From assembly GCF_000422285.1 (NCBI RefSeq), contig NZ_AULM01000005.1, forward strand, positions 1-64,000: DNA of 64,000 nucleotides. The letters are read 5' to 3'. The notes under the pieces were generated by a model. The model ran no database searches. It had not been told where the DNA came from and saw only the letters and a list, made by a program, of their open reading frames with translations. The translations under genes were made by a program, and so were the position numbers. This DNA is from Desulfatiglans anilini DSM 4660 (GTDB taxonomy: Bacteria; Desulfobacterota; DSM-4660; Desulfatiglandales; Desulfatiglandaceae). This document shows, piece by piece, positions 9,011-32,726 of this stretch; the first letter of the stretch is position 1; the number at the start of each line of letters is the position of its first letter.

Positions 9011-10267
9011 TCAGATCTTCTGGAGGAAGCCATCGATCAGCTGTTTTCTCTTCGCCAGATGGAGGAGTTCGGGATCGCCCTGCTTAATCTTGCGGAAGGT
9101 GCGGCCGTGGCGGCGCAGCACATCGAGCAGCCGGCGCGGGTAATAAACGTAGATTTTCCATGAGCCGCGGCAGGCCGGATAGAGCACCGCCATAGTCCGT
9201 TTGGGCAAAAAGACTCTGTTCAAGAGGATCCCGAGCTTTCCGCCCAAGCGCTCGTATAGGATGAGGTCCGCAAAGGGTTTCGGTATCGTCGAGGCGATCC
9301 TGCTGTTGGTGAACACCTGTGAGACCGCAGCGTTTAGAATATCCGCCGTGATGTCCGCCGGCTTCAATCGGGCCGTGATCCCGCCCGGCACGGGGGCGTC
9401 CACCAGTTTCTTCGCGAGCAGCAGGGCCATGTAGACGCCGCGGCCCCAACCCCATCGCTCGGAGCGTTCCAAAACGGCGTCCCAATCGAAGCGGTCGCCG
9501 CACCAGAGCAGCAGTTCGGCGATGTCGCAGGAGGGGCGAAGCCCGAAGGCGAACTGGTGATGATAGGAGGTGTGGAGACAGAGGTGGAGGAGCATGTCTT
9601 CGGGGCAGAATGCCAGAACATTCGTCCCCTGCAGCTTCACCGGAAGGGCCCGTTTCCACAGCTCATCGGGGTCGATCCTGTACCGCCTGTTGGAGTGGGT
9701 TACGTTCCAGTGGATTTCAAAACCGGCCTCGCCTTCCTTGATGAGGCGGGGGAGATGAAGGTGGATTTCTTCGGCATCCTCCTGGTTGACATCCACCCTG
9801 GGGGCATAGCCCAGTTCGCCGGCCAGTTCGGCGATGCGTTGGACATGCTGCGGCCGGGCCAGCAGATCGATGTCGTTCATCTCCCGGAGTCCGATGTCAC
9901 GGTACACCGCGTCAGCCAGGAACATCCCCTTGAGGACGATGACGGGAATATCCTCCCGCTCCAGCAGCCTCGCCAAACGCCGAAGCGCTCCGTAGGCTCG
10001 CAAGTTCCGGAGGGTCGTATCCAGACAGGCTTGCCGGAGGCTTGACCTGCATGCATCCGGTAAATGATGACTCAGCCCTTTTTCCCGCAATCGGTAATAG
10101 AGGAGGGGGCTGATCCGCATGATCTTCGCGAGTGCGAGAAGCCGGTCCCAATCGGACGGGCCGAGAAGGGCCGTCGCCGCCGGCTCCGGAACCGCAGGAT
10201 TCCTGTTGAGGAGTTCCAGCAGCAACCGCTCCGTTTCGTTCAACCATGCGAAGGGATCGATCATCAC
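9011..10267 (-). CDS. Nucleotidyltransferase-family protein (PF14907 type), lasso-peptide tailoring candidate
   Basis: 418 residues. The nucleotidyltransferase signature appears as VIVLKGMFLADAVY followed by REMNDIDLLARP, with K113-G114 and the metal-binding pair D132/D134. The rest is helical, as in this family. Proteins of this type recur in RiPP clusters. In the pseudomycoidin lasso pathway such an enzyme further modifies the phosphorylated peptide, reported as hexose addition to the phosphate. Here it is the last gene of the minus-strand B2-exporter-nucleotidyltransferase operon. With an HprK-like kinase in the same cluster, action on a phospho-Ser tail is the best guess. Substrate and donor are unproven. 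Confidence 0.82.
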   Translation of the reverse strand: MMIDPFAWLNETERLLLELLNRNPAVPEPAATALLGPSDWDRLLALAKIMRISPLLYYRLREKGLSHHLPDACRSSLRQACLDTTLRNLRAYGALRRLARLLEREDIPVIVLKGMFLADAVYRDIGLREMNDIDLLARPQHVQRIAELAGELGYAPRVDVNQEDAEEIHLHLPRLIKEGEAGFEIHWNVTHSNRRYRIDPDELWKRALPVKLQGTNVLAFCPEDMLLHLCLHTSYHHQFAFGLRPSCDIAELLLWCGDRFDWDAVLERSERWGWGRGVYMALLLAKKLVDAPVPGGITARLKPADITADILNAAVSQVFTNSRIASTIPKPFADLILYERLGGKLGILLNRVFLPKRTMAVLYPACRGSWKIYVYYPRRLLDVLRRHGRTFRKIKQGDPELLHLAKRKQLIDGFLQKI

Positions 10268-10286: not shown

Positions 10287-12122
10287 TCAGGATGGTTCGG
10301 TGGATTCAGCCAGCGCCGCGTCCCTGTCCGTCTGCCGGCGCCACGAAGCGGCGTAGCGCCCGTTCATCGACAGGAGCTCGTCGTGGGTGCCTTCCTCGAT
10401 GATGCAGCCGCTGTGCATAACATAAATCCGGTCGGCCCGCAAGGCCGTCGTGAATCGGTGCGTGATGATGAGGGCCGTCCTGCCGGCGGCCAGGCGGCGG
10501 AAGCGGCTCAGCCAGTCCGTCTCCGCCCAGGAGTCCATGGCGCTCGTGGGCTCGTCCAGGATGATGAGGGAGGCCCGGCGCAGGAAGGCTCGGGCGAGGG
10601 CAAGGCGCTGCCATTCCCCCACGCTCAGTTCGGCTCCGCCGAACCACTTGCCGAGGAGGGTCCGGTAACCGAGGGGCAGCCGATGAACGAAGGCTTCGGC
10701 CCCGGCGGCCCGGGCCGCCCCTTCGATTTCGCCCATGCCCGGCGCGGCGGCGAGGTCGCCAAAGGCGATGTTGTCCCCGATCGTCTCATGATATCTCACC
10801 GGTTCTTGGAAAAGCACCGTGATCCGCCGGCGCAGCTCCGGGAGATTCAGATCGCGCAGGTCCAGGCCGTCCAGCAGAATGCGGCCCGCGTCCGGGTCGT
10901 AGAAGCGGCAGAGGAGCTTGATGAGGGTGCTCTTTCCCGCCCCGTTTTCGCCCACCAGGGCGGCGATCCGCCCCTTGGGAATGAGGAGGCTGAAATCGGC
11001 CAAGGCTGGATGCGGGCTCCCCGGATACCGGAAAGAGACGTTTACGATCGAGACCTCGCAGCCGCTGCCTTCGGGCAGAGTCGAGGGCCTTTCCGGATCC
11101 TGGATCTGTGGCATCAGTTCCAGGTATTCGAAAAGGTTTTCGAGGAACATCATGTTGCGGTAAATCTCCCCGGCGTTGGAAAGCAAGTCCCGCATCATGC
11201 GCTGCCCTTGTGAGAAGGCCAGATAGAAGAGGGTCAGTTCTCCCAGCGTAACGGTCCCTCGGCTCGCTTTCCAGGACATCCAGGCGAGCCCTCCGGCGAG
11301 GGCCGCGAGACCGAAGACGCTGGCCCCGATTCTGCCGACAGCCTCCTTTTTGGCCAGATCGCCCCGTTCGCGGCGCAGGCCCTCCCTCAATCGCCGGAAG
11401 GCATCGCGAAAGGGGATCCCCAGGCCGAAGAGACGCAGTTCCGGCGCAGCGTTGCGCTCCGTGATCATCCAGTCGTAATAACGGCAGCGGCGCTCCGCTG
11501 CGGTATTGCGAACCCGCCAGGCATGGAAGCGCAGGGTGTTGCGAAAGACGACGAAGAGCGCCGGAAGAGTGCTCACGAAGAGGATTAGGGGCAGCCAGGG
11601 ACCGAAGCGCAGAAGAACCAGGCACATGGCGGCCAGGGTAACGCCGTTTTGCAGAAAAGCGCCGATGTTTTCGAGCATGGCCGCGGGCCGGCTTACGGCG
11701 TCGATCCGGGCGCGATGGAGACGATCGTAGTAATCGGGGGAGTCGTAGAAGGCGATATCGAGGGCGAGGGCCTTTTCGTGAATGCGTCCGTGGATGTGGT
11801 CCTGAACCTGTTCGGATTGAACGGTGCGCATCCAGCCGGTGATGCCTCGCAGCGCCTCGCCTGCCAGAAGCGTCAAGACCGTCAACCCCACGAGGAGCAG
11901 AAAGGGCGAAAGGGCCGTCCAGGAATATTCCTTCCCGAGAATGGCCACCAGACCATCGACGACGGCCCGCGTCAGATAGACCGTGGCCACCGGGAGAAGC
12001 CCCTGCAAAAGGATCAGGGCCAGCCAGGCCATGGCCCAGACACCCGCGGCGGCCCAAACCAGCCGCAGCGCCCGCGGGAGATAGGGAAGCTGCTTCAGCG
12101 CCTTGTCGAGCTTAGCCTTCAT
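10287..12122 (-). CDS. Lasso-peptide exporter, ABC transporter with fused permease (D protein)
   Basis: 611 residues from ATG 12122, which overlaps the B2 gene by 11 bp; an in-frame upstream ATG would run deep into B2 and is rejected. The permease half (about 20-330) has about six membrane spans. The nucleotide-binding half has Walker A GENGAGKST (391-399), signature LSVGEWQRLAL (from 499), Walker B LIILDEPTSAMD (D523) and H-loop TALIITHRF. A single-chain exporter without a C39 peptidase domain is the normal D component of lasso clusters, conferring export and self-protection. It is translated coupled to B2 and lies 20 bp ahead of the nucleotidyltransferase gene. Confidence 0.9.
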   Translation of the reverse strand: MKAKLDKALKQLPYLPRALRLVWAAAGVWAMAWLALILLQGLLPVATVYLTRAVVDGLVAILGKEYSWTALSPFLLLVGLTVLTLLAGEALRGITGWMRTVQSEQVQDHIHGRIHEKALALDIAFYDSPDYYDRLHRARIDAVSRPAAMLENIGAFLQNGVTLAAMCLVLLRFGPWLPLILFVSTLPALFVVFRNTLRFHAWRVRNTAAERRCRYYDWMITERNAAPELRLFGLGIPFRDAFRRLREGLRRERGDLAKKEAVGRIGASVFGLAALAGGLAWMSWKASRGTVTLGELTLFYLAFSQGQRMMRDLLSNAGEIYRNMMFLENLFEYLELMPQIQDPERPSTLPEGSGCEVSIVNVSFRYPGSPHPALADFSLLIPKGRIAALVGENGAGKSTLIKLLCRFYDPDAGRILLDGLDLRDLNLPELRRRITVLFQEPVRYHETIGDNIAFGDLAAAPGMGEIEGAARAAGAEAFVHRLPLGYRTLLGKWFGGAELSVGEWQRLALARAFLRRASLIILDEPTSAMDSWAETDWLSRFRRLAAGRTALIITHRFTTALRADRIYVMHSGCIIEEGTHDELLSMNGRYAASWRRQTDRDAALAESTEPS

Positions 12123-12576
12123 CGGGACAGTCCCCAAAGGTCGAGACGACGCTGAAACGGTCCGCTCCCTCTCGGCCCGTGACGATGACATCGCCGCAGC
12201 GAAGCCATGCATGGGCGCACAATCGGGCGTTTTCATCCTTGGCCACCCCCAGGTACAGGGTGGTGGGCATACTGCGCCTCCGCAGCATGGCCTTTCCGGC
12301 TACCGCCTGAACCAGGCACTGGCACTCCCAGGGAAGGTTCCGGGCCGCGCGCTGGACCGCACGGGTGACGGCCATGGCCTTGGCAGCCTCGGAAAGGTCC
12401 AGGTTCGCGGCGGTCGTTTCATGCCGGTAGGTGCCCAGATAAGGGGCCAGCCGGCGAAAAGGCAGCAGCAGGACAGCCAGACGCGCCAGGCCGAGCCAGA
12501 AGGCCGCCTCCAGAAGGAGCCCGCGGCCCGTGGGCATGCGGATGAACCGGACGATCCGCCGCACGAAAAGCCTCAT
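12112..12576 (-). CDS. Lasso peptide B2 leader peptidase (transglutaminase-like)
   Basis: 154 residues of the lasso B2 family (Transglut_core3). The N-terminal half contains a hydrophobic helix. The catalytic half has C87 in CQCLVQAVAG, H122 in LCAHAWLRCG and a candidate acid D129, the Cys-His-Asp triad of B2 proteases. It should remove the leader after Thr(-2), working with the separate PqqD-like recognition protein at 15018. GGAGG lies eleven bases upstream of the ATG. It is the first gene of the minus-strand operon and is divergent from the precursor operon, each with its own promoter in 12577-13268. Confidence 0.92.
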   Translation of the reverse strand: MRLFVRRIVRFIRMPTGRGLLLEAAFWLGLARLAVLLLPFRRLAPYLGTYRHETTAANLDLSEAAKAMAVTRAVQRAARNLPWECQCLVQAVAGKAMLRRRSMPTTLYLGVAKDENARLCAHAWLRCGDVIVTGREGADRFSVVSTFGDCPDEG

Positions 12577-13268: not shown

Positions 13269-14045
13269 ATGCATGGAGAATCCACGGTTTTTTCGACGAA
13301 TAAGCGCGCGATGACCCAACCTGTTCCGGATTTCGTGATCCGGGGTGTTCCCCGGCAGGAGGACATCAACCTCGTGACCGGGTGGCACAGACAGGGACTG
13401 TTTTACGGGCCCACGTCCATCCTGGACGAAGTCTATGTCCACGCCGGCTTCCTTGCCGGCTTTTTCTCCCCCCATCCGCCGCATTGCCACGAACACGAAG
13501 AACTGCACATCGCGCTGTCGGATCATGTCGAGATTTTGAGCCGTGATGCCGGTTCCGGGGTCGAGAAGTCGGTGCTGGCAGACAAGGGTGCCCTGCTGTA
13601 TCTTGACGCCAGAGTTGCCCACACGATGCGGAACAGGGCTGCCGATCCTGTCGACTATTTCCACGTCAGGTGGAAAAACACGTCCAGGACCTTTTCTTCG
13701 GGGATAAGAAAGGCTTTCGAGTATTCACCGCGCAAAGGGAGCAGAGGGTTCAAGCGGACCACGGGCGAAGGCACCGAGACCGTTGAGATCTATTCCGGGC
13801 CGACGCGTTACTTGCCGGGTTTGAGGGTGCTGTTTACCAAGGTTCTCGCCGGAGGCAGGATCCCCTTGCATCATCACCCGCACGAGGTGATCTTTCTGTT
13901 CCTGAGCGGCTCCGTCGAGATCCTCGGGAAAAGGATGGATGCCCCCGGTTTTGCGTTCACAGGCAGGCAAATGCCTCACTATGTCTTCAATCACGGACCG
14001 GCGCCCGCCGAATATTACGCACTCGAGCTGCATCCGGAGGCATGA
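13269..14045 (+). CDS. Two-domain cupin protein of the lasso cluster
   Basis: 258 residues with two cupin barrels. The first (about 65-135) has the His-rich metal motif HPPHCHEHEELHIAL and the second motif GALLYLDARVAHTM. The second (about 190-250) has IPLHHHPHEVIFLFLSG and later GRQMPHYVFNHG. The His/Glu ligands suggest a mononuclear metal in each. AAGG nine bases before ATG 13269 supports that start; ATG 13311 is the alternative. It opens the plus-strand operon and ends 7 bp before the kinase start. Bicupins can be oxygenases, isomerases or sensors. A tailoring or regulatory role in the lasso pathway is inferred only from position. Confidence 0.75.
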   Translation: MHGESTVFSTNKRAMTQPVPDFVIRGVPRQEDINLVTGWHRQGLFYGPTSILDEVYVHAGFLAGFFSPHPPHCHEHEELHIALSDHVEILSRDAGSGVEKSVLADKGALLYLDARVAHTMRNRAADPVDYFHVRWKNTSRTFSSGIRKAFEYSPRKGSRGFKRTTGEGTETVEIYSGPTRYLPGLRVLFTKVLAGGRIPLHHHPHEVIFLFLSGSVEILGKRMDAPGFAFTGRQMPHYVFNHGPAPAEYYALELHPEA

Positions 14046-14052
14046 CGCTTTG

Positions 14053-15003
14053 GTGGGAGGCCACAGCCACGCCCTTTCGCCCGAAAAGGGCATTTTTTCC
14101 GAAACAGAGCACGTCTACAAGGCCTACGGCCTCGAGTTTTTGTCCCAGGTCCGCGTGCCTCATTTTCCGGAGGCCGTCCATTCCGGGGACCCGGACGTGC
14201 GCATTAGACACGGGGAAATTTTCGGCCCTGGATACACGCCCCCGGCATCGATCCAGATCGATGCTTCGCCCGGACGGCTCCTGTTGCGCGGGGCGAGGAG
14301 CGCCACGATCCTGGTCACGGGCGGGAACTCGATGACGATCGAGCCGCTCCCGAACGGAAACGCCGCAACCATCATGCAGATCCTTCTCGGGTGGGGGTTG
14401 GGGGGCCTGTTCCACCAAAGGAACCTGCTCCCCCTGCACGGCAGCGCCCTTTGCAGGAACGAGAATTGCTTCGTCCTCTGCTCCCCCTCCGGCGGGGGCA
14501 AATCCACTCTGACGGCGTCATTCCTCAACCGGGGTTTTTCGTTTCTCGATGACAATATCGCGCTGGCGGATTTCGAGGACGGCAAGGCATACATCGCATC
14601 GGGGTCCCCGGAGCTCCGTTTGTGGGAGCATGCAATGCCGGTGCTCGACTTCGAACATGAGACGGCGGGGCGCATAAGGCCCGATATGGACAAGATCTCG
14701 ATTATCGCTCGAGGGAACTTCAGAAGGGAAAAGGCCCGCCTCCGAAAAATTTTCGTGCTGAAGAGGGGCGACGGAGCGGAGGTTTCTTTCATTGACCTCA
14801 CAGGCGCTGCGAAATTCCAGACATTGCTGGAGAGTGTTTTTTTTGTTAGAATTACAAATTATTGTAAAAGCAATAGAGGATTGTTCCGGCTTGTATGCCG
14901 CCTTGCTGAAAAGGCGCCGGTTACGGAAATCAGGCTTCCCGCTAGACTGCCGCCGCCCGATGACCTCTGCGATATCATTCTCGGTGCTCGTGTGCTGCAG
15001 TGA
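14053..15003 (+). CDS. HprK-like kinase, probable lasso peptide kinase
   Basis: 316 residues from GTG 14053 (TTG 14050 also possible; GGAGG at 14036-14040). The P-loop CSPSGGGKST has K150 and S151, and the acidic pair is D166/D167 in FLDDNIAL, as in HPr Ser kinase/phosphorylase. The N-terminal HPr-domain part of true HprK is replaced by an unrelated ~110-residue region. HprK homologues in lasso clusters phosphorylate the C-terminal Ser of the precursor (paeninodin, pseudomycoidin). The precursor here ends in Tyr-Ser, which fits. It sits between the cupin and PqqD genes; its stop lies within 15 bp of the PqqD start. Confidence 0.85.
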   Translation: MGGHSHALSPEKGIFSETEHVYKAYGLEFLSQVRVPHFPEAVHSGDPDVRIRHGEIFGPGYTPPASIQIDASPGRLLLRGARSATILVTGGNSMTIEPLPNGNAATIMQILLGWGLGGLFHQRNLLPLHGSALCRNENCFVLCSPSGGGKSTLTASFLNRGFSFLDDNIALADFEDGKAYIASGSPELRLWEHAMPVLDFEHETAGRIRPDMDKISIIARGNFRREKARLRKIFVLKRGDGAEVSFIDLTGAAKFQTLLESVFFVRITNYCKSNRGLFRLVCRLAEKAPVTEIRLPARLPPPDDLCDIILGARVLQ

Positions 15004-15017
15004 TGGAGGACAACGCT

Positions 15018-15299
15018 ATGAAAGAAATGACGCTTGACACGGTTGTCAAGCGAAACGAAGATATATTCATGGGCAGCATCGACAACGAGACGGTTGCGAT
15101 GAGCATTCAGAACGGCAAGTATTACCAGATGAACGAGACCGCTTCCCGCATTCTTGGTCTGCTCGACCAGGAGCGCTCCATCAGTGAACTGTGCGAGATC
15201 ATGCAGGGATCATACAGGGTCGAGGCTCCTGTTTGCAGGGGGGACGTTCTTGACTTCGTCGAACGGATGGCGGAATTGGGGTTGATAGAAACGATATAG
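15018..15299 (+). CDS. PqqD-like RiPP recognition protein (lasso B1)
   Basis: 93 residues from ATG 15018, preceded by GGAGGA at 7 bp; in-frame upstream starts lack a site. It shows the PqqD pattern: VVKRNEDIFMGSID, then YYQMNETASRILGLLD, then SISELCEIM and a final winged-helix segment VERMAELGLIETI. PqqD proteins (RiPP recognition elements) bind the leader and deliver it to the protease and cyclase. In lasso systems the split B1 pairs with B2, found here on the opposite strand. It lies 112 bp before the precursor gene, which appears to have its own promoter. Confidence 0.9.
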   Translation: MKEMTLDTVVKRNEDIFMGSIDNETVAMSIQNGKYYQMNETASRILGLLDQERSISELCEIMQGSYRVEAPVCRGDVLDFVERMAELGLIETI

Positions 15300-15347: not shown

Positions 15348-15376
15348 TTGACAGGGGTCTGTATTTCGTATTAGAG
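15348..15376 (+). promoter_or_regulatory. Candidate promoter immediately upstream of the precursor gene
   Basis: A perfect -35 TTGACA (15348-15353) is followed by weaker -10 choices: TATTAG after 15 bp or TTAGAG after 17 bp. It lies about 40 bp before the precursor ATG. A private promoter would let the substrate be made in excess over its enzymes. Confidence 0.4.
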
Positions 15377-15411
15377 TCCAATCGACAAAAACAACCGGGA
15401 AGGGGGCGAGC

Positions 15412-15558
15412 ATGGAAAGGAAAACGGATTTACAGGAAAAGGGCGCCGGTGACTTGCGGCGGGAGTGGCAAAAGCCTTCGGTGGAGGAACTGGACATCAA
15501 TGCGATGACTTTGGCAGGCACGACCGGGGACGGATCCGACAACCAATCCTATAGCTGA
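15412..15558 (+). CDS. Lasso peptide precursor (A); predicted core AGTTGDGSDNQSYS
   Basis: 48 codons with AGGGGG five bases before the ATG. The leader (residues 1-34) is charged and carries W19-Q-K-P22, equivalent to the YxxP recognition motif. T33 is at -2 to the cut, as in nearly all lasso leaders. Cleavage after L34 gives a 14-residue core beginning A35-G36. D43 is core position 9, the right place for a 9-membered Ala1-Asp9 macrolactam like that of paeninodin. The remaining tail is Asn-Gln-Ser-Tyr-Ser. The terminal Ser suits phosphorylation by the HprK-like kinase, and internal Thr/Ser could take sugar. The gene lies between B1 and the glycosyltransferase on the same strand. Confidence 0.9.
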   Translation: MERKTDLQEKGAGDLRREWQKPSVEELDINAMTLAGTTGDGSDNQSYS

Positions 15559-15598: not shown

Positions 15599-15718
15599 TT
15601 GAAGGAAACGATCCGGGATCCTGAAATGCTTGCGGAATTACTGGCTAAGAAAGTATTTTTCTCCGCCGGCCTGTTGAGGTCTTCGCAGCAGGTCCGCACT
15701 TTCAACAGCGCCGGATGA
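15599..15718 (+). CDS. Possible small coupled ORF between precursor and glycosyltransferase
   Basis: A 39-codon frame (TTG 15599, or 30 codons from ATG 15626) ends in a TGA that overlaps the glycosyltransferase ATG (ATGA). It would encode a helical, basic peptide including MLAELLAKKVFFSAGLL. No good ribosome-binding site precedes either start, but the glycosyltransferase also lacks one, so coupling would make sense. I do not recognise the product and it may not be translated. Confidence 0.25.
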   Translation: MKETIRDPEMLAELLAKKVFFSAGLLRSSQQVRTFNSAG

Positions 15719-16881
15719 CAAGCATCGCCCTGGCGAACGAAATGGGTGGAGGATGGGGCCATCTGCTCACCCTCCGGACGATAGCCGAAGCGTTCTTGCA
15801 GCGAAAGTGCAGGATCACCTTGCTGTGCCGCGAGGCCGAGAAGGCTCGATGCGCCTTTTCGGGGATGGACGTCGCCGTTGAGCAATCCCCGGCGTGGCCA
15901 CCTCGCTTCACGGGCTTTTCCCTGAACTTCGCCCAGAGTCTCTGGCGGAATGGGTATCGGGACGACGAGGCCTTCGACGCGCATTTCGCCTGGTGGTCGG
16001 GCAGGTTCAGGGCTCTGAAGCCGGCCTTCGTCCTGACGGATTTCGCCCCCACCGCCCTTTTGTGTGCCCTGGCCCTTGGCCTCGCGCGGGGGGCGGTCGG
16101 CACGGGTTTCACCCTTCCTCCTCCAACCACGCCCACCCCCTTTTTGCACCCATGGCTCGAGGTCTCAGACGAGGCCCTCCAGCAAGCCGACGACAGAGTC
16201 CTCTGTGCCATCAGGCGCCGTGTGCCTGCTCTCCGCTCGGTGGCCGGGATCTTCGATGGGGCCGCCCGGTTTCTTTGCGTGTTTCCCGAGATGGACCATT
16301 TCGAGATCCGGTCCTCGGAAAGATATCTCGGTCCTGTCTTCGGGCCGAACTTCCGCCATGAACCTCCACGTCAGGACGGGGCCGGGCCCCGCGTCTTCGT
16401 TTATCTGAGTGCGGCGAACCGGTGTCTGAGCGACATCCTGGGCTATCTCAAGACCCTCGGTTTTCCCGCAATCGGGCACATCAGAGATCTTCCTGAATGC
16501 CAGAGAAAGGCGTTCGAGTCGCCGACACTGCGGTTGAGCGGCCCCCTCATGAACCTGGACCGGGCCGCTGCCGAATGCGACATCGCGGTGACGCAGGGGG
16601 GGCTTCACACAACCGCCCGGATGCTTTTGGCCGGAGCGCGCCTCCTGATCTGCCCGGAGCAGCTCGAGCAGACGCTCCTGGCTTACCGGCTGAACCAAAG
16701 GGGGCTCTGTGAATTCGTGAGCTGCTTCAGCGAGCCGAAAACAGTCGAACAGAGATTCGATCTCGCGGCTTCTTCGAAGCGTCTTGGAAAGAACGCCGGA
16801 GCATTCGCCGCCAAGCATGCCGGGTATCATTCAGCGGATACGGTGAGGGAGATCGTCGATACATGTCTTCGAGCGGTATAG
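15715..16881 (+). CDS. GT-B fold glycosyltransferase (UGT/MurG-like) of the lasso cluster
   Basis: 388 residues. The N-terminal Rossmann half starts SIALANEMGGGWGHLLTL, the usual GT-B acceptor-side glycine loop. The C-terminal half has the nucleotide-sugar motif CDIAVTQGGLHTTARMLLAG followed by LLICPEQLEQTLLAYRL, equivalent to the donor site of UGT/MurG enzymes (GG, then P-x4-Q). It should transfer a sugar from an NDP-sugar. Position after the precursor and before the two radical SAM genes (19-bp overlap) implies that the lasso peptide or a modified intermediate is the acceptor. Ser/Thr of the core or the phosphorylated tail are candidates. Acceptor and sugar are unknown. Confidence 0.8.
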   Translation: MTSIALANEMGGGWGHLLTLRTIAEAFLQRKCRITLLCREAEKARCAFSGMDVAVEQSPAWPPRFTGFSLNFAQSLWRNGYRDDEAFDAHFAWWSGRFRALKPAFVLTDFAPTALLCALALGLARGAVGTGFTLPPPTTPTPFLHPWLEVSDEALQQADDRVLCAIRRRVPALRSVAGIFDGAARFLCVFPEMDHFEIRSSERYLGPVFGPNFRHEPPRQDGAGPRVFVYLSAANRCLSDILGYLKTLGFPAIGHIRDLPECQRKAFESPTLRLSGPLMNLDRAAAECDIAVTQGGLHTTARMLLAGARLLICPEQLEQTLLAYRLNQRGLCEFVSCFSEPKTVEQRFDLAASSKRLGKNAGAFAAKHAGYHSADTVREIVDTCLRAV

Positions 16882-17903
16882 AAAAAGGGGACAGGATAAG
16901 CGCCGACTGCCTGACGGTCTATCCGGCGGAGGCCAGGCTCGACCTCTCCAGCCTGTGCCAGCTCCGCTGCGTGCTTTGCCCCGTGATGTCGAGAGGAGGG
17001 CGGCCTTTTATAGGCCGCGGCGTGATGCCGCTCGCCGACTTTGTCGAGTTCGTCGAGAGCAACCCCCGGATCCGGCTCATCGAACTCGGAAACTCGGGGG
17101 AGGTCTTTCTCAATCCCGATCTCCCCGCTATTCTGAGATACGCTGCGGAAAAAGGCGTTGCGACCCGCATCGCTGAGGGAGCGAACCTCAATGACGCCTC
17201 TGACGAAGCCCTCGAGGCGGTTGTCCGCTGCAAAGTAAGGTTTTTGAGGGTGGCTGTGGACGGGGCGACACAGGCGACCTACCGTTTATACCGCGTCGGC
17301 GGGGAACTCAGGAAGGTCCTGGGGAATATCCAAAAGATCAACGCCTACAAGAATCGATACAACACCAGACTGCCGCACCTGATCCTGCAGTTCATCACCT
17401 TCCCGCACAATGAACATGAAATGAAGAAGATGGCATTCATCGCCCGGGCGATGGACATGACCCTTGAATTGAAAATCAACGTCTTCCACGGATACCCCCC
17501 TCTGTCCAATCCAGGGGCGCTGACCGATCTGCTCGGGTATTGCGACAGGGAATCCTATCAGAGAAAGACGGGGAAGCCGTATATGAGGGAGATTTGTCTT
17601 CAGCTCTGGAGATCCCCGCAGGTCAACTGGGATGGAAGGCTTCTCGGGTGCAGCGGCAACAAGAGCGTTGCGTACGCCGACTACGCCCTCGGCAAAGCGT
17701 TTGCGAGGGAAGTCAATAACCCGCACATCCAATATGCCAGGAGAATGCTCATGGGGATCGCGCCCCAGCGGGACGACATCCCGTGCTCGGTCTGCGAACT
17801 CTACGCCGATTACCGGAGATACGGCCAATGGTTCACGCCCCGGGAGATCAGGGCCTCGATGGAACGCTGGCGGGAACAGGTGCCCGAGAATGAAGTGCTA
17901 TGA
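16863..17903 (+). CDS. Radical SAM/SPASM protein 1 of the lasso cluster
   Basis: 346 residues. The radical SAM cluster motif is C32-x3-C36-x2-C39 in LCQLRCVLCP. A TIM-barrel core follows (IRLIELGNSGEVFLNPDLP, FLRVAVDG). The C-terminal SPASM-like part carries cysteines in REICLQLW, VNWDGRLLGC and DIPCSVC, likely ligands of an auxiliary cluster. Radical SAM/SPASM enzymes often modify RiPPs, but close relatives also occur in polysaccharide loci. It overlaps the glycosyltransferase by 19 bp and the next radical SAM gene by 14 bp, so the three form one translational unit. The reaction on the peptide cannot be deduced. Confidence 0.85.
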   Translation: MSSSGIEKGDRISADCLTVYPAEARLDLSSLCQLRCVLCPVMSRGGRPFIGRGVMPLADFVEFVESNPRIRLIELGNSGEVFLNPDLPAILRYAAEKGVATRIAEGANLNDASDEALEAVVRCKVRFLRVAVDGATQATYRLYRVGGELRKVLGNIQKINAYKNRYNTRLPHLILQFITFPHNEHEMKKMAFIARAMDMTLELKINVFHGYPPLSNPGALTDLLGYCDRESYQRKTGKPYMREICLQLWRSPQVNWDGRLLGCSGNKSVAYADYALGKAFAREVNNPHIQYARRMLMGIAPQRDDIPCSVCELYADYRRYGQWFTPREIRASMERWREQVPENEVL

Positions 17904-18888
17904 CCTCTTGAAGGTCGACCCGGTGAAGGCGCGGCTCGATGTATCGACCGTGTGCCAGCTCAGGTGTCTTTTGTGCCCAACCGACGAGAACAACGGCCGG
18001 GCCTTTCTCAAGAGCGGCACCATGCCCCCCTCGAGATTCACCCGTTTTCTCGATTATAACCCGCAGATCAAATGGGTCGAGCTGGCGAGCTCCGGCGAGG
18101 CTTTCCTGAATCCCGATCTGCCGGAGATTCTGAAAAGCGCGCATGAACGGGGAGTGGCAACGAACCTCGGGGGAGGGGTCAACCTGAACGACGCCTCCGA
18201 GGAGGCCCTCGAGGCGCTTGTCAGGTACCAGACGGTCCGCGTCCGGGTTTCGGTCGACGGCGTCACCGAGGAGACCTACCGCAGATACCGCATCGGCGGA
18301 AGCCTCGGGAAGGTGTTGACCAATATCAGAAAAATCAACCATTTCAAGCAGAAATACCGCTCCCCGTTCCCGGAGCTGCTGCTCCAGTTCATCCTTTTCG
18401 GGCACAATGAGCACGAGTTGGAAAAGGTCTTCGTGCTGGGCAAGATGTTGGACATGAATGTCTTTATCAAACTGAACAGATGTCCGGATCAGCTTCCCGT
18501 GAGGGACAGGGAGAAGATCCGCAATCTGATGGGGTATGCCGACAGGGGGGAATTCATCGAGGCCGTGGGGATCCAGTATTGCCGGGATCTGTGTCTTGGC
18601 CTCTGGAAGGCCCCCCAGATCAACTGGGACGGACGGCTTTTGGGATGCGGATCCAACACGAGAATGGCCTTTGCCGAAGATGTCCTCGACGGAACGTTTC
18701 TGCAGGAGATAAACAATGAGCGGATGACCTACGCGAGAAGAATGCTCCTGGGAAAAGCGCCGCCCTGCGACGACATTCCGTGCTCGGGCTGCGCCTTCTA
18801 CAAACAGATCTCGGAGCACAAGCTCTGGTATACTCCGGAAGAGATCGGCGCCGTTGCATCAAAACATGGGGTCTGCTACGAGCCGTGA
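17890..18888 (+). CDS. Radical SAM/SPASM protein 2, tandem paralogue
   Basis: 332 residues from ATG 17890; a longer in-frame extension would lie inside the upstream gene and is rejected. Motif C22-x3-C26-x2-C29 in VCQLRCLLCP, then WVELASSGEAFLNPDLP. The C-terminal cysteines fall in QYCRDLCLGLW, INWDGRLLGC and DIPCSGC. It is plainly a duplicate of the preceding gene: the two align over their whole length with matching motifs and diverge in the mid region. Two paralogues may form a heterodimer or modify different residues. Its stop is 24 bp from the convergent cyclase gene. Confidence 0.85.
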   Translation: MKCYDLLKVDPVKARLDVSTVCQLRCLLCPTDENNGRAFLKSGTMPPSRFTRFLDYNPQIKWVELASSGEAFLNPDLPEILKSAHERGVATNLGGGVNLNDASEEALEALVRYQTVRVRVSVDGVTEETYRRYRIGGSLGKVLTNIRKINHFKQKYRSPFPELLLQFILFGHNEHELEKVFVLGKMLDMNVFIKLNRCPDQLPVRDREKIRNLMGYADRGEFIEAVGIQYCRDLCLGLWKAPQINWDGRLLGCGSNTRMAFAEDVLDGTFLQEINNERMTYARRMLLGKAPPCDDIPCSGCAFYKQISEHKLWYTPEEIGAVASKHGVCYEP

Positions 18889-18912: not shown

Positions 18913-20859
18913 TCATCCCCGGTCCGTCAAGCCCGTGACGAAACGCCCCGCCATCACGCCCCTGAGAAGAAGGAACGCCGACCTCTGGGAGGCCTGCGCA
19001 GCCGCGCCCCCGGCCTGGAGACTCCGCCAGGCGGCCCGCAGCGCGTTGACATCCAGATAGGCTCCCACTGCATCGTGGGAAGCTAGGGCGGCCAGTTCCC
19101 CTTCCATTTCCTCCCGGTGATCCAGAAGACGCAGGGGCACGTCCGCCGCCTGCCTGCCCCGGACGGTGTTTTCGATCAGCTCCTGCGAAAGAATGCCCCT
19201 CATGGAGCGCCGCAGGAGCATCCGCTCCCCGCCGTCCCGGCTGTACTGGTCGTCCGGTATGCCGAGACAGAAGGTGATGAGCCGGACATCAGCCGTCGGG
19301 TCCCGGACCTCCATTCTGAAAGCGGCCCCCCACTGGTGATGGATATAGCCTGCCGGGGCGTTCATCATGATGGTTTGCCGCCGTTCCCATTCGGGGTCCC
19401 TGGGGCGCGCAAACAAAGGGTTGTGGTTTTCTGCCTTCATCGTCTCGCGCAGCCCCATGCGCCGGGCGAACTCCGGGTGGATTGCGCCGTATCGGCTCCA
19501 GGGTGCTTGCCAGGGGTGGACCACCTGCCGGCAGCGGTACCACAGGGGCCCCAGGATGGGCCCCAGCAGATGGCTGCGGATCGCCCGGTACCAGGAAAAG
19601 CCTCTTGCCTTTTTGTATTCCCTCAGCGCGCGCATGCCCTCGTCCGAGCGGCCCTGGAGCAGAAGAAAAAGGATGCGGTGGCTCCCGCCGCTCCAGGAAA
19701 CCCCTCCGTTTCCCATCTGCCCCGTGAGGAGCACCCTGATCCCCATCCGCTGGGCCTCCTCGTGTATGGATCGAATCCAGAACAGGTTTGTCGCCGCATG
19801 GAGGGGGTGGCCGCAGATGCGAAGCCCGGCCCGGACGCCCGCAAGCGGGGAGACGCCCTCGGCCCGGATGGATATGTGCTGGATGTTCTCATATTTTTCG
19901 GCCAGAGTGTGGGCGAGGGACCATTCGTCAGCCAGGGCGCCGGGGACTAGATGGGCCGCCGGATGGAGCGGAACCGATGTGAAGCTTGGAAGGGTCCGGC
20001 GGTCCGCCTCGAGCATCTCCGCAGCGAGGGCCGTCACGGAGCTCGAGTCCAGGCCTGCGCTCAACTGGGACCCGACGGGCCGATCGCTCCGGAGCCGCAC
20101 CCGCACGGCCCGACGGAAAAGCTCCAGAAATCCCTCGCTGTACGCCTTGTCCGAAGTTAAACGGAAGGTGGGGGCGTCCTCGATGCGCCAGTAGGTTCGA
20201 ACCTTCAGAGCATGCGGTGTCACGGACATCTGGTGGGCGGGCGGGAGCAGGCGGATGTCTTCCCAATAGGTCCGTGAACGATCGGCCTCCTGCCCCGGGA
20301 AGACCGTCAGGTACCGGGCAAGACGCCATTCGTCCAGTTTCCATTCAAACCGGCGCAGGGCCAGTATGGCTTGCGCGGTCGAGGCGAAGGCGAAAAAGGG
20401 CGGCCTGTGGAAATAGAAAAGCCCCGTGTTGCCCAGGTGGTCCCGGGCCAGAAAAAGCCGCCGCTCCCGCCCATTCCAGGCGGCAAACGACCAGTCGCCG
20501 AAAAGGCGCCCCGGCGCTTCCTCCCCCCAGAGAACGAAGGCCATGGCGGTGAGATGCCCGTCGCCGAGCGTGGCCCGCTCGTTCGCAGGGATATGAAGAT
20601 CGCGGCAGAGTTCGCGCCGGTTGTCCAACCGCGCGGCAGCCGTGACAAGAATCCCAGCAACGGGCTCCTCCCACGGCATACGTTCGTGCCGGGCCTCCGG
20701 AGCTACGGAGAGCCGGGCATGCCCCAGCAGCGCCTCCCCCAGGCAGCGGCTGGTGACGCCGTCAGGCCCCCAGGCCGCCATGGCTTCGGCCATGGCACGG
20801 AAATTTTCCTGTGGGATAGGTCTGCCGTCAAAAGAAACCAATCCAAAAATACCGCTCAT
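18913..20859 (-). CDS. Lasso cyclase, asparagine-synthetase-like (C)
   Basis: 648 residues in two halves. The N-terminal Ntn-hydrolase-type domain starts MSGIFGLVSFDG, with Ser in place of the catalytic Cys2 of glutamine-hydrolysing AsnB, as expected when no ammonia is needed. The C-terminal ATP-pyrophosphatase domain has the PP-loop SAGLDSSS (267-274). In lasso pathways this protein adenylates the acceptor Asp/Glu side chain and closes the macrolactam with the core N-terminus, here Asp9 and Ala1. It is transcribed alone, convergent with the precursor operon. I found no precursor gene upstream of it. Confidence 0.9.
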   Translation of the reverse strand: MSGIFGLVSFDGRPIPQENFRAMAEAMAAWGPDGVTSRCLGEALLGHARLSVAPEARHERMPWEEPVAGILVTAAARLDNRRELCRDLHIPANERATLGDGHLTAMAFVLWGEEAPGRLFGDWSFAAWNGRERRLFLARDHLGNTGLFYFHRPPFFAFASTAQAILALRRFEWKLDEWRLARYLTVFPGQEADRSRTYWEDIRLLPPAHQMSVTPHALKVRTYWRIEDAPTFRLTSDKAYSEGFLELFRRAVRVRLRSDRPVGSQLSAGLDSSSVTALAAEMLEADRRTLPSFTSVPLHPAAHLVPGALADEWSLAHTLAEKYENIQHISIRAEGVSPLAGVRAGLRICGHPLHAATNLFWIRSIHEEAQRMGIRVLLTGQMGNGGVSWSGGSHRILFLLLQGRSDEGMRALREYKKARGFSWYRAIRSHLLGPILGPLWYRCRQVVHPWQAPWSRYGAIHPEFARRMGLRETMKAENHNPLFARPRDPEWERRQTIMMNAPAGYIHHQWGAAFRMEVRDPTADVRLITFCLGIPDDQYSRDGGERMLLRRSMRGILSQELIENTVRGRQAADVPLRLLDHREEMEGELAALASHDAVGAYLDVNALRAAWRSLQAGGAAAQASQRSAFLLLRGVMAGRFVTGLTDRG

Positions 20860-21516: not shown

Positions 21517-21735
21517 CCATCCGGAAATGGTCTTTTTGACCAATCTCGGTGTCAATTGCGCGCTTGGTTGTGCGGCGACCTGCAGGCCGCCTACGCGCAA
21601 CCGCTTGATTTCCTTGATATTGGCCAAACCGGGAGCCGCCGCGAAGGGGTGTGACTGAGCGCGCGAAGCGTGTGAAGAAAAATCTTCATTTTCGGATTGT
21701 AAAGGGGCTTGTACCGGGACATCATTTCCGGATGG
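21517..21735. repeat. Short terminal-inverted-repeat element, copy 1
   Basis: 219 bp bounded by perfect 13-bp inverted repeats, CCATCCGGAAATG at the left and CATTTCCGGATGG at the right. The interior matches 58247-58517 in several blocks, including TGATTTCCTTGATATTGGCC, GACTGAGC and GTGTGAAGAAAAATC. There is no coding capacity for a transposase, so it looks like a MITE-like or other non-autonomous dispersed repeat. It sits just upstream of the pseudopilin operon. Confidence 0.75.
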
Positions 21736-21801
21736 ACACGCGCATTAGTTGACCCGGTTTTTTTCTGCCGGAGGGCCTTCGCTCACGGCTCTAGAGACAA
21801 C

Positions 21802-22356
21802 ATGAAGAAATCCATCATTCGTCTGCTGCGGACAGTCTCGGCTTTCCCGACTGGATCAGGCGCTGAAGCAGGGCAGGGATCTCTGATCCGCGCGCATACG
21901 GCGGGCGGGTTTACCATCGTGGAGATGATAGCGGTGCTGGTCATCCTGGGGGTGCTGGCATCGGTCGCGGTGGCCCGCATGATGACGGATGACGGAGCGG
22001 AAGTCCGCAGGGCGGCCGAAACACTCAAGATGCACCTGCGGCAGGCCCAGTTCCGGGCCATGTATTCTGACACGAGCTGGGGTGTCCATTCGAACGGCGG
22101 CAGCTACTGGCTATTCGAGGGTCCCAACACCTCCAATCGAGTCATGTTCCTCGGGGAGGGTTCCGATACGGTTACGCTTCCCTCCGGAGTGAGCTGCGGT
22201 TCGTTTACGGTCTCCTTCGACGACTGGGGCGTCCCTTACAACGGGGCGAGCCCCCAGAGCGGAAACGAACTGTCTTCAGCCAAGACGATCCAGATTGCCT
22301 GCTGCTCCAAGACCATATCCATCACGATCACCCCCAACACCGGATTCATCGAATGA
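21802..22356 (+). CDS. Type IV pilin-like/GspH-type pseudopilin
   Basis: 184 residues from ATG 21802. The class III leader is long (36 residues), ending GG-FTIVE with cleavage predicted after G36 and the conserved Glu at +5 (E41). The hydrophobic helix MIAVLVILGVLASVAV follows, and the periplasmic part is ~130 residues. Size and shape fit the minor pseudopilin GspH/FimT type. It is the first of four coupled genes: its stop overlaps the next ATG (ATGA). It probably primes assembly of the fibre whose machinery is encoded at 27480-35192. Confidence 0.82.
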   Translation: MKKSIIRLLRTVSAFPTGSGAEAGQGSLIRAHTAGGFTIVEMIAVLVILGVLASVAVARMMTDDGAEVRRAAETLKMHLRQAQFRAMYSDTSWGVHSNGGSYWLFEGPNTSNRVMFLGEGSDTVTLPSGVSCGSFTVSFDDWGVPYNGASPQSGNELSSAKTIQIACCSKTISITITPNTGFIE

Positions 22357-22715
22357 AAAGCGGAGTCCGTTCGTCCGGCTTCACCCTGGTGGAAGTGATT
22401 GCGACCCTGGTCATCATGGCCCTGGGAGGGGTCGCGGTGTTCACTTTTCTCCACGGCGCCGTTACCCGCAGCTCCGAGCCCGTCGCAATGGCTCAGGACC
22501 TTGCCTCCGCGATGGACACGATGGAGGAGATCACCGCCCTGTATCATGATTACAGGAAGGGAGACCTATCGTGGCAGGCTTTTAAAACGGATCTGGGCGA
22601 TTACCCTGTGACCACAGCGGATAAGGAAGATGCCATGGGAAATCCGGGTTTCGAAATTGTAATGGTGACGGTGAATACGGGCTGCCAATCCTTGTCCACC
22701 TTCTTTTCGGAATGA
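22353..22715 (+). CDS. Minor pseudopilin, GspI/PilV-like
   Basis: 120 residues with a 9-residue leader ending SSG-FTLVE and Glu at +5 (E14). The helix VIATLVIMALGGVAVF follows. The short periplasmic domain has one cysteine near the C-terminus. It is translationally coupled to the preceding pseudopilin and lies 3 bp before the next one. Order and size correspond to the GspI position of type II secretion and the equivalent minor pilins of MSHA-like pili. Confidence 0.8.
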   Translation: MKSGVRSSGFTLVEVIATLVIMALGGVAVFTFLHGAVTRSSEPVAMAQDLASAMDTMEEITALYHDYRKGDLSWQAFKTDLGDYPVTTADKEDAMGNPGFEIVMVTVNTGCQSLSTFFSE

Positions 22716-22718
22716 GAC

Positions 22719-23192
22719 ATGGTGAAACGAGACCGTGAACGACATCCGGACAAGAAGGGCGGCTTCACCTTGGTGGAAGTGATCGCGGTTCTTCTGATTG
22801 TGGGCATCCTCGTCGGTACCGGGGGCTGGGCCGTGGTCCAGGGTGTGCAGGGTTTCCTGATGGCGCGCGACAGCGCGGTTTTGACGCAAAAGGCGCAGTT
22901 GGCCCTGACGAGACTTACCAACGAGTTTCGAATTTGTTACGACTGCTTTGGGAATGCCGGCGGCATCTCCTTGCCTTTCACCTTCAATACCAGCCGGGGT
23001 GGGCGGACGCTCGATCTTTCGGGTGGCCGCCTCACGATCGATGGGGATGACCTGATTGACGAAGTCAGCGCCTTCGCCTTGGCCTATGACGACTTGGGGC
23101 GGATTCGCATCCAACTGAGTTTGACCCACCAGCAAGGGGGTGTTTCGATCCCCTTTGAGACGTGGGTCTTCCCGCGCAATATCTACAATTGA
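22719..23192 (+). CDS. Minor pseudopilin, GspJ/PilW-like
   Basis: 157 residues with a 15-residue leader ending KKGG-FTLVE, Glu at +5 and helix VIAVLLIVGILVGTGGW. The periplasmic part contains paired cysteines (RICYDCFG) that could form a disulfide. It is third in the four-gene pseudopilin set, with 12 bp to the next gene. Minor pilins of this class cap or initiate the pilus. Confidence 0.8.
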   Translation: MVKRDRERHPDKKGGFTLVEVIAVLLIVGILVGTGGWAVVQGVQGFLMARDSAVLTQKAQLALTRLTNEFRICYDCFGNAGGISLPFTFNTSRGGRTLDLSGGRLTIDGDDLIDEVSAFALAYDDLGRIRIQLSLTHQQGGVSIPFETWVFPRNIYN

Positions 23193-23204
23193 GAGAGAGC
23201 GCTC

Positions 23205-24911
23205 ATGAGAAATTTCCTGAGACCGGCGAGCGACGCATTCCTTCTTCGACATATCGTTGATTTTCACGGTGGTGTCCTGATCGCCGCCGTGGTGGCTATC
23301 CTTTTGGTTGGTGTGCTGGGTGCCGGGGTTGTGTCTATGGTCGGCACCTCGAGCCAGGAAGAGGTCCGTGCCAACCACGGGGAGCGCGCCTTTCTTCTGG
23401 CGGAATCAGGATTCAGATACGCGGAATCAGTTTACAAAAGCAAGTTACAAAGTCAAGGCAAGGCCTCCGCAAAAACCGCCTTGCTCGCATTGCACAATCA
23501 AACGAAGTCCGCTCCGGGAGGCGGTACATTCAACCTGCAAGTAATAGAACACGTATACGGCAGTTCTGCAGTTGCTGACGGCTCCCAGACAATCTATGAA
23601 CACAAAGACATTGTGCTCAATCCCGGCTTCAACCTAACGCCCTACAACGGTGTCTTTCTCCACAACGAATCCTGGTATCGCTATCGTGAGTTCGATAAAC
23701 CTAATAATACTTTAAAGGATGTTATCCAGGCAAAGGCGGGAGCTGTGTTCCCGATCGTTCTGGATGATAATCAGAACATTGACTACTTCTATAGTGATAC
23801 CATCGAGATCCTTTCTACTGGTGTGTTTCCAGATTCTGACATAATGAAAGTTTCACGGAGGGTAGCCTACTGGTGGCCATTGCAGAGCGCTGGTGGCGGA
23901 GGCGGTGAGGAACTTGGACCTTTCAGCGGTGGTCCAGATGTCTGGGAGGATTTCGATGATGGAACCACCTCTTTCTACGACGATCAAAATGATATGCTGG
24001 GATCTTTCGAAATTTATGATGGATCAATGAATGTTTCAGCGGTTCAGAATGATTCTCAGGCGGCTTTTTTGACGATATACAATACTTCTAATGTGAACAT
24101 GAATTCGGACTACGAGCTTCAAGCGAAAGTCAAAGTGGCAGATGGTTCTATACACATGGCTGGGATTACATTCCGTAAGCAGGTAGTGAATGTAACCCCT
24201 TCCCAGCGCAAAAGTTACGGTTTGTCGTTTCTTCGTGGAGGAGGAGATAAAAAAGACGGTATACCGGATCTTAAAATCAATGACACTGGCAAATTATACC
24301 TTGTTCTATGGGAGGCTCCCAAAAATGCGCCTCCTGCAGGGAAAACCGATGTAATTGCATACAAGGAAATTAAATCAGACTATGTATTCAATAATGGGGT
24401 ACTTGCAGACTGGTCGACACTACTCGTCCGGATCAGGCAGGAAGAGAATTGCAATTTGATTACTGCTTTTTACACGGATGCATCGGGGAGTTCGACAACC
24501 GGTGGAGATACAGAACCGCGGAACAAGGTCAGGAAAAGAAGTCCAAGAGATGGAATTACGCCATCGAAAGGGCAGAAATACCTACCCTGGCCACCAAACG
24601 ACATCACCAACTGGACACCCTATGTCGACTATCTGACTCTGGTAACCTGGGACTGGGTGAATCCGGACAAAGCTGTTCTCATAAACGATAAGTACGACCC
24701 ATATGTCAGCAATAAAAACAAATATGGGAATATTGTGATCAAGACACCTGAAGATGAGCTGACGTTTACAAAACCAGCTTATGAGTTGGGGTTGCACGCC
24801 TTTGGTATAACTAAATACATCACTGACGTTTCATTCGATGATTTTGCGTTCAGGCTAGCCGAACCAGAAAATGGCCCGGATGTCTACATTCCACCTATTG
24901 TGCTTCAATAA
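23205..24911 (+). CDS. PilX/GspK-like large minor pilin with putative beta-sandwich domain
   Basis: 568 residues. An N-terminal hydrophobic helix (about 23-47, GVLIAAVVAILLVGVLGAGVV) is followed by the PilX-type segment RAFLLAESGFRYAES. There is no GFxxxE prepilin site. The large C-terminal region (about 230-560) contains strands like a concanavalin/LamG-type sandwich (MAGITFRKQ, YGLSFLRGG), suggesting an adhesive tip. From about 23600 onward the DNA is clearly A+T-richer than neighbouring genes, so the domain may have been acquired separately. It ends 124 bp from the convergent major pilin gene, with a hairpin between. Confidence 0.72.
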   Translation: MRNFLRPASDAFLLRHIVDFHGGVLIAAVVAILLVGVLGAGVVSMVGTSSQEEVRANHGERAFLLAESGFRYAESVYKSKLQSQGKASAKTALLALHNQTKSAPGGGTFNLQVIEHVYGSSAVADGSQTIYEHKDIVLNPGFNLTPYNGVFLHNESWYRYREFDKPNNTLKDVIQAKAGAVFPIVLDDNQNIDYFYSDTIEILSTGVFPDSDIMKVSRRVAYWWPLQSAGGGGGEELGPFSGGPDVWEDFDDGTTSFYDDQNDMLGSFEIYDGSMNVSAVQNDSQAAFLTIYNTSNVNMNSDYELQAKVKVADGSIHMAGITFRKQVVNVTPSQRKSYGLSFLRGGGDKKDGIPDLKINDTGKLYLVLWEAPKNAPPAGKTDVIAYKEIKSDYVFNNGVLADWSTLLVRIRQEENCNLITAFYTDASGSSTTGGDTEPRNKVRKRSPRDGITPSKGQKYLPWPPNDITNWTPYVDYLTLVTWDWVNPDKAVLINDKYDPYVSNKNKYGNIVIKTPEDELTFTKPAYELGLHAFGITKYITDVSFDDFAFRLAEPENGPDVYIPPIVLQ

Positions 24912-32213: not shown

Positions 32214-32726
32214 CTATTCTTCCAGCTGAAGCACGAAGCGCTGGCCGTCTGTTTTCCGAACCAGAACGACGCTGGTTCGGTGGATTTCCTCGAGCCTGTA
32301 GTCACCCGGATCGATCCATTCACCCTTTTGGTATTCGAAGTCATCGATGATCGCCAGGTGCGTGTCCCCGAATTCCACAAAACCCGAATACATGAGCCCC
32401 AAGTCCTCCGCACTTTCCGAACCCCCTGTTTCTTCCTTGTGGAGGAAGGTCTGCAGGGCATAGTCCTGGTCCCAGAATGGGTCCGGCGCCCATTCGAGGG
32501 TGGCGGTTTTGGCGATCTGTTGGACCTTCTCCTGTTCGGGGCTCTTGCGAAGGTTTTTGGCCATATCTGCGACGAACGCGTTCAGGTCGACGTTCGCCTC
32601 AGCCGGGGGCGGACCCTTCAGGGAGGCGGCCTTCCCGCCGGCGAAAAAAATCTCATAGGCGCCGTAGGCGAGCACGAGCGCCATGATGATCACGAGGGTT
32701 ATCTCCCGTTTGGCCAATTGAATCAC
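32214..32726 (-). CDS. PilP-like pilotin/inner-membrane-secretin linker
   Basis: 170 residues from GTG 32726, overlapping the PilO stop (GTGA). One N-terminal membrane helix (ITLVIIMALVLAYGAYEIFF) is followed by a Pro-rich segment. The C-terminal beta domain reads YSGFVEFGDTHLAIIDDFEYQKGEW, YRLEEIHRTSVVLV, as in PilP/MshK-type proteins that contact the secretin. A lipobox is absent, unlike classical PilP. Position between PilO and secretin fits the order M-N-O-P-Q. Confidence 0.75.
   Translation of the reverse strand: MIQLAKREITLVIIMALVLAYGAYEIFFAGGKAASLKGPPPAEANVDLNAFVADMAKNLRKSPEQEKVQQIAKTATLEWAPDPFWDQDYALQTFLHKEETGGSESAEDLGLMYSGFVEFGDTHLAIIDDFEYQKGEWIDPGDYRLEEIHRTSVVLVRKTDGQRFVLQLEE

Follow-up and report, generated by a model that had tools for sequence, protein, structure and literature searches.

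The gene at 15412-15558 (+) of the window, by which we mean the whole 64,000-nucleotide stretch of Desulfatiglans anilini DSM 4660 DNA analyzed here, very likely codes for a minimal-tailed lasso precursor of the paeninodin type, whose product would carry a ring closed between A1 and D9 and a phosphorylated and probably hexosylated Ser14, and would be exported by the transporter D. Its most notable traits are the very short, Ser-ended tail, which recurs in related clusters, and the glycosyltransferase/twin radical-SAM cassette that accompanies it.

The 48-aa product, read directly from the window as MERKTDLQEKGAGDLRREWQKPSVEELDINAMTLAGTTGDGSDNQSYS, is preceded immediately 5' of its ATG by AAGGGGGCGAGC, which holds a Shine-Dalgarno-like AAGGGGG. 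It comprises a leader (residues 1-34) with a WxxP motif (W19-Q-K-P22) and T33 at position -2, followed by a 14-residue core, AGTTGDGSDNQSYS (AGTTGDGSD-NQSYS), in which A35 is core residue 1. D9 (D43) is the sole acidic residue at core positions 7-9 (the core has one further acid, D6), and the predicted A1-D9 ring of nine residues leaves a tail, NQSYS, of five. The C-terminal residue is Ser, and Cys is absent. The original prediction had described a 48-codon gene with a ribosome-binding-type stretch, W19 and P22, Thr33 at -2, and Asp at core position 9, all of which can be read in the sequence; the YxxP it cited as the lasso leader motif applies here with W in place of Y, as is normal for paeninodin-like precursors, among which WxxP is nearly invariant (PMC13381572). 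The precursor scores 32.5 bits (E 5e-8) against the NCBIfam model NF033524 (lasso_PadeA_fam), above the cut-off of 27, and this is the only match of the model in the 4.67-Mb genome (E 7e-7). Shuffled 64-kb sequences contain on average 0.33 precursor-shaped patterns with a ribosome-binding site, and the window contains two; the second match is an unrelated-looking frame at 32214-32318 (-), and the pattern scan found no other plausible precursor in the 64 kb. A promoter-like match from a consensus scan, TTGACA-18-TAGAGT (15348-15377, +), lies 34 bases upstream of the precursor start and is suggestive only, with 2.4 expected by chance in the scanned region, and folding of the sequence 3' of the gene gave no distinctive terminator-like hairpin (z -1.95).

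Homologues of B1, B2, C, and D around the precursor, also part of the original prediction, are confirmed by NCBIfam and Pfam. B1 (15018-15299, +) is a discrete PqqD-type RRE predicted to bind the leader; it matches the PqqD Pfam family, scores 63 bits against lasso_PqqD_Bac (under the cut-off of 80), and in the structural database matches the lasso RRE TbiB1 (5v1u, E 3e-8) and the lasso PqqD chaperone in 9x90 (E 1e-6). The transglutaminase-like leader peptidase B2 (12112-12576, -) reaches 102.6 bits against NF033537 (lasso_biosyn_B2; cut-off 33), with Cys87 and His122 conserved in the alignment. C (18913-20859, -) is a lasso macrolactam cyclase of the asparagine-synthase type that scores 359 bits against lass_lactam_cya, under the cut-off of 525, and is closest, at 61-62%, to the cyclases of three related clusters (L073-L075). 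D (10287-12236, -) is an MsbA-like ABC exporter (Pfam ABC_tran; MsbA family), 53-62% identical to D of several related lasso clusters; its listed start overlaps B2, and the true start may be further downstream. The plus-strand run reads cupin, kinase, B1, precursor, glycosyltransferase, radical SAM 1, and radical SAM 2; C converges on it from the minus strand, and B2, D, and a nucleotidyltransferase (12576 down to 9011) diverge from it on the opposite side. The original prediction had left out the cupin, kinase, nucleotidyltransferase, glycosyltransferase, and radical SAM genes of this cluster. A run of prepilin-like genes with N-terminal GFTLVE-type motifs lies downstream of the cyclase, at 21709-24911.

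Upstream of B1 stands an HPr-kinase-like gene (14053-15003, +; the frame is open from 13939 and the start is inferred) with an intact Walker A motif, SGGGKST. Its product scores 49.5 bits against HprK_rel_A, well under the family cut-off of 200, and had no match when queried against the PDB. HPr-kinase homologues of lasso clusters act on linear precursors, which they phosphorylate at the C-terminal Ser, and fail to modify the threaded peptide (PMC8498205). The nucleotidyltransferase (9011-10267, -; PF14907, NTP_transf_5, E 8e-68) is a PsmN-type candidate for sugar addition to phosphoserine; PsmN itself attaches a single hexose or two to phospho-Ser (PMC9266682). The kinase and nucleotidyltransferase recall the pseudomycoidin (psm) cluster of Bacillus, in which the two phosphorylate and glycosylate the terminal Ser; the window differs in its glycosyltransferase/radical SAM cassette, none being noted for psm in the literature searched.

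Judged by every sequence-testable feature, the window precursor is of the paeninodin type: we found the NF033524 match, WxxP with Thr at -2, an acid at core positions 7-9, discrete B1, B2, and C, and a kinase homologue together with a C-terminal Ser. The likeness to the paeninodin family (PadeA, NF033524) extends to the core Asp9 and the split B1/B2. The paeninodin core has 23 residues, in contrast to the 14, with a tail of five, in the window, whose cluster has in addition a glycosyltransferase, a cupin, and a pair of radical SAM genes. The window gene order also departs from the C-A-K-B1-B2-D given for paeninodin (PMC5067487).

From these components we infer a pathway that would run from phosphorylation through leader removal by B1/B2 and ring closure by C to export. 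The HPr-kinase-like enzyme would act on the precursor while it is still linear and phosphorylate its last residue, Ser14; the nucleotidyltransferase would attach one or more hexoses to this phosphate, so that Ser14 is probably glycosylated. B1 would bind the WQKP leader and B2 would cleave after L34, with Thr33 at -2; C would then link the A1 amino group to the D9 side chain, giving the nine-residue ring and the NQSYS tail, and D would export the product.

The decisive evidence comes from comparison with L076, a cluster in a metagenome-assembled genome of an uncultured Desulfobacteraceae that shows the order kinase-B1-precursor-glycosyltransferase-radical SAM-radical SAM, as in the window. Identities to the window are 49% for the cyclase, 34% for the kinase (which adjoins B1 in L076), 38% for B1, 50% for the nucleotidyltransferase, and 48-50% for the two radical SAM proteins. 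Its precursor, MEKEFSMKEKDERCDWIPPSVTDWDIESETNSCCNNGTTDGSVYS, sits in the homologous slot with a W-to-T spacing of 14, equal to that of the window, and its core, SCCNNGTTD-GSVYS, has 14 residues, D9, and a five-residue tail ending in Tyr-Ser. The original prediction had named a conserved precursor at another site, with none here, as the finding that would count against it; the analysis found the opposite, since L076 has its precursor at the corresponding site. Its reading of the gene as a lasso precursor with an A1-D9 ring and a five-residue tail gains support at the sequence level, D9 being the sole acceptor at positions 7-9 and L076 sharing the 14-residue, D9, xxxYS layout. With a counterpart gene in this position in a related bacterium, so short a tail appears to be a genuine trait that the two have in common.

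We surveyed tail lengths in 40 clusters, including the window, taking one core per cluster (usually the shortest-tailed where there were several), with precursor calls that were partly hand-curated and in a few cases had non-ATG starts. The predicted ring size was 8 or 9 throughout, and eight clusters have a five-residue tail (the window, L076, L077, L085, L110, L116, L117, and L128). Thus the original view that so short a tail is unusual holds against the characterized lassos known to us, but the tail is not unique. Ser is the last residue of all 16 tails with at most six residues and of 9 of the 24 longer ones (Fisher p 4e-5, with relatedness ignored). The cyclase tree places the window in a clade of short-tailed clusters: its smallest well-supported sets are one with L073-L075 (support 99) and one of 12 rows (support 100), where 7 of the 8 labelled tails have at most six residues; seven changes on the tree are needed for short tails and five for terminal Ser. 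Among five independent pairs, short tail and terminal Ser never went in opposite directions, pairs too few for significance (sign test, median p 0.25). The association of tail length with terminal Ser is not independent of phylogeny.

To our knowledge, the shortest known lasso peptides have tails of about seven residues or longer, and for this reason five residues may not hold a thread. The xanthomonins, among the shortest characterized lassos at 14-16 residues, have a seven-residue ring and a tail of at least seven; they resemble the window peptide in being very short, with a ring of seven residues against the nine predicted here, and we know of no kinase associated with them. A 2014 survey gave 16-23 residues as the usual lasso size and recorded HPr kinase and sulfotransferase genes in lasso clusters of anaerobes (PMC4289311). 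A sulfotransferase gene (PF00685) lies between kinase and B1 in two of the clusters that we collected (L054:10323-11282 and L063:10744-11604), and the window cluster has none.

A threaded form of the window peptide would have a loop of about three residues (N10-S12), which leaves Tyr13 and Ser14 level with the ring or beneath it, and Tyr13 with the modified Ser14 might then serve as the lower stopper. A bulky phospho-hexosyl Ser in that role would explain, as a hypothesis, why all the shortest tails end in Ser. Such a peptide would make the lower limit of lasso size concrete, as a five-residue tail in a nine-residue ring, and raises the question of whether a modified terminal Ser can stand in place of a bulky plug. 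The broader proposal, a group of minimal lassos of 13-14 residues with five-residue tails, a phospho-glycosylated Ser as stopper, and in some members further tailoring by the glycosyltransferase and the radical SAM pair, is a speculative one that we think improbable as a whole. The tail itself also suits an unthreaded, branched-cyclic (lariat) peptide in which the A1-D9 ring forms and five residues are too short to stay threaded: NQSYS is short and polar with a single bulky residue, Tyr13, and GGGFS, GVSLS, and similar tails are much alike. We consider this possible but the less likely outcome, since B1, B2, C, and D are all of the normal lasso type and the repeated appearance of short Ser-ended tails among distant clusters points to a functional fold.

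Two further readings of the precursor have very little to recommend them. The 48 codons are few and many relatives have longer cores, so a truncation or mis-called gene, with the real precursor elsewhere, could be imagined; we find this highly improbable, for the genome holds one family match, no other plausible precursor is present in the window, and the reading is largely refuted by L076, where the corresponding slot holds a homologue with a core of equal length, to which the eight five-residue tails among 40 clusters and the uniform Ser ending of the 16 short tails add. The kinase, nucleotidyltransferase, and MsbA-like exporter are likewise common to clusters for linear polyphosphorylated peptides (LPPs; PMC13381572), as is a discrete RRE, but LPP precursors have a YxxP leader, a SipW-type peptidase, and a linear product made with no cyclase, whereas the window has WxxP, B2, and C; an LPP precursor here is scarcely credible, and the paeninodin-type lasso reading is the one that we retain.

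Downstream of the precursor, a UGT-like glycosyltransferase (15715-16881, +; profile match to UGT YjiC, E 7e-5) is 33-35% identical to the glycosyltransferase in the same slot of L076. It is followed by radical SAM protein 1 (16863-17903, +; PF04055), which has a CxxxCxxC motif and a C-terminal Cys set and is 46-48% identical to its homologues in L076 and in a further cluster, L101, and by its paralogue, radical SAM protein 2 (17893-18888, +; PF04055, 42 bits; 48-50% to protein 1). A two-domain cupin (13269-14045, +; Cupin_2, E 4e-9) opens the plus-strand run, and in L101 a cupin 25% alike adjoins the radical SAM genes. A radical SAM query found no match in the PDB, a plasmid search with the protein returned weak matches only, and AlphaFold modelled radical SAM 1 poorly (pLDDT 57). 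A homologue of the window glycosyltransferase also occurs at L141:9528-10718 in a genome of the same family, with no lasso genes found nearby.

The glycosyltransferase and the radical SAM pair may tailor the peptide further, in which case a lasso scaffold would be subject to both kinds of chemistry. Thioether chemistry of the sactipeptide type on the window core is unlikely because that core has no Cys to act as donor; the L076 core has two. The cassette might instead be a separate one, devoted perhaps to a surface glycan, and only adjoin the lasso cluster. Homologues do occur without lasso genes (the glycosyltransferase in G022, outside any lasso cluster, and the radical SAM protein of G085 in L065), and in the literature searched we found neither radical SAM tailoring of lasso peptides nor a report of a glycosyltransferase/twin radical-SAM cassette for them. 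Against this, in L076 as in the window the precursor is followed by a glycosyltransferase gene and a radical SAM pair, a position partly conserved in L101, where the radical SAM genes lie on one contig with cyclase and kinase, and the three window genes overlap end to start. We regard a separate cassette as a minority reading that deserves some weight and prefer, tentatively, a role in tailoring the lasso peptide.

Scans of 85 genomes of the order and 395 of the phylum with NF033524 matched nothing besides the window because the model misses relatives: none of the 10 relative precursors scanned passes its cut-off, and the short-tailed group is therefore probably under-counted in genome mining and missed by standard annotation. 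B2 exceeds its cut-off in 25 of 390 phylum genomes, and two of these B2-positive clusters, L054 and L063, have WxxP precursors with cores of 15-16 residues. A scan of genome contigs with a single cyclase sequence gave no match, and an alignment-based scan with three cyclases gave 66 loci from GTDB genomes. The W and P of WxxP are invariant in 14 aligned precursors; a precursor was looked for in L074, L078, and L101 and none was found.

Several other precursors differ from that of the window. In a Smithella metagenome-assembled genome (L080:4950-5912), the core AGLGGESGGDGDTGYS has no Asp or Glu at positions 7-9 (E6, D10, and D12 only), which would fit either a ring of 10 residues or a displaced cleavage site. 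The gene at L106:9450-9584, WHKPSVMRIDIKKTLEMEEST, has a lasso-like leader but only about six residues beyond the Thr, and it lacks a ring acceptor; B2, D, and the nucleotidyltransferase of its cluster are 48-60% like those of the window. A second group of WxxP precursors (L087, L089, L090, L091, L094, L097, and L107) has SLDT immediately ahead of the core and, in most members, GSxxDG within the ring, with tails of 7 to 10 residues that do not end in Ser and a kinase homologue in most of the clusters.
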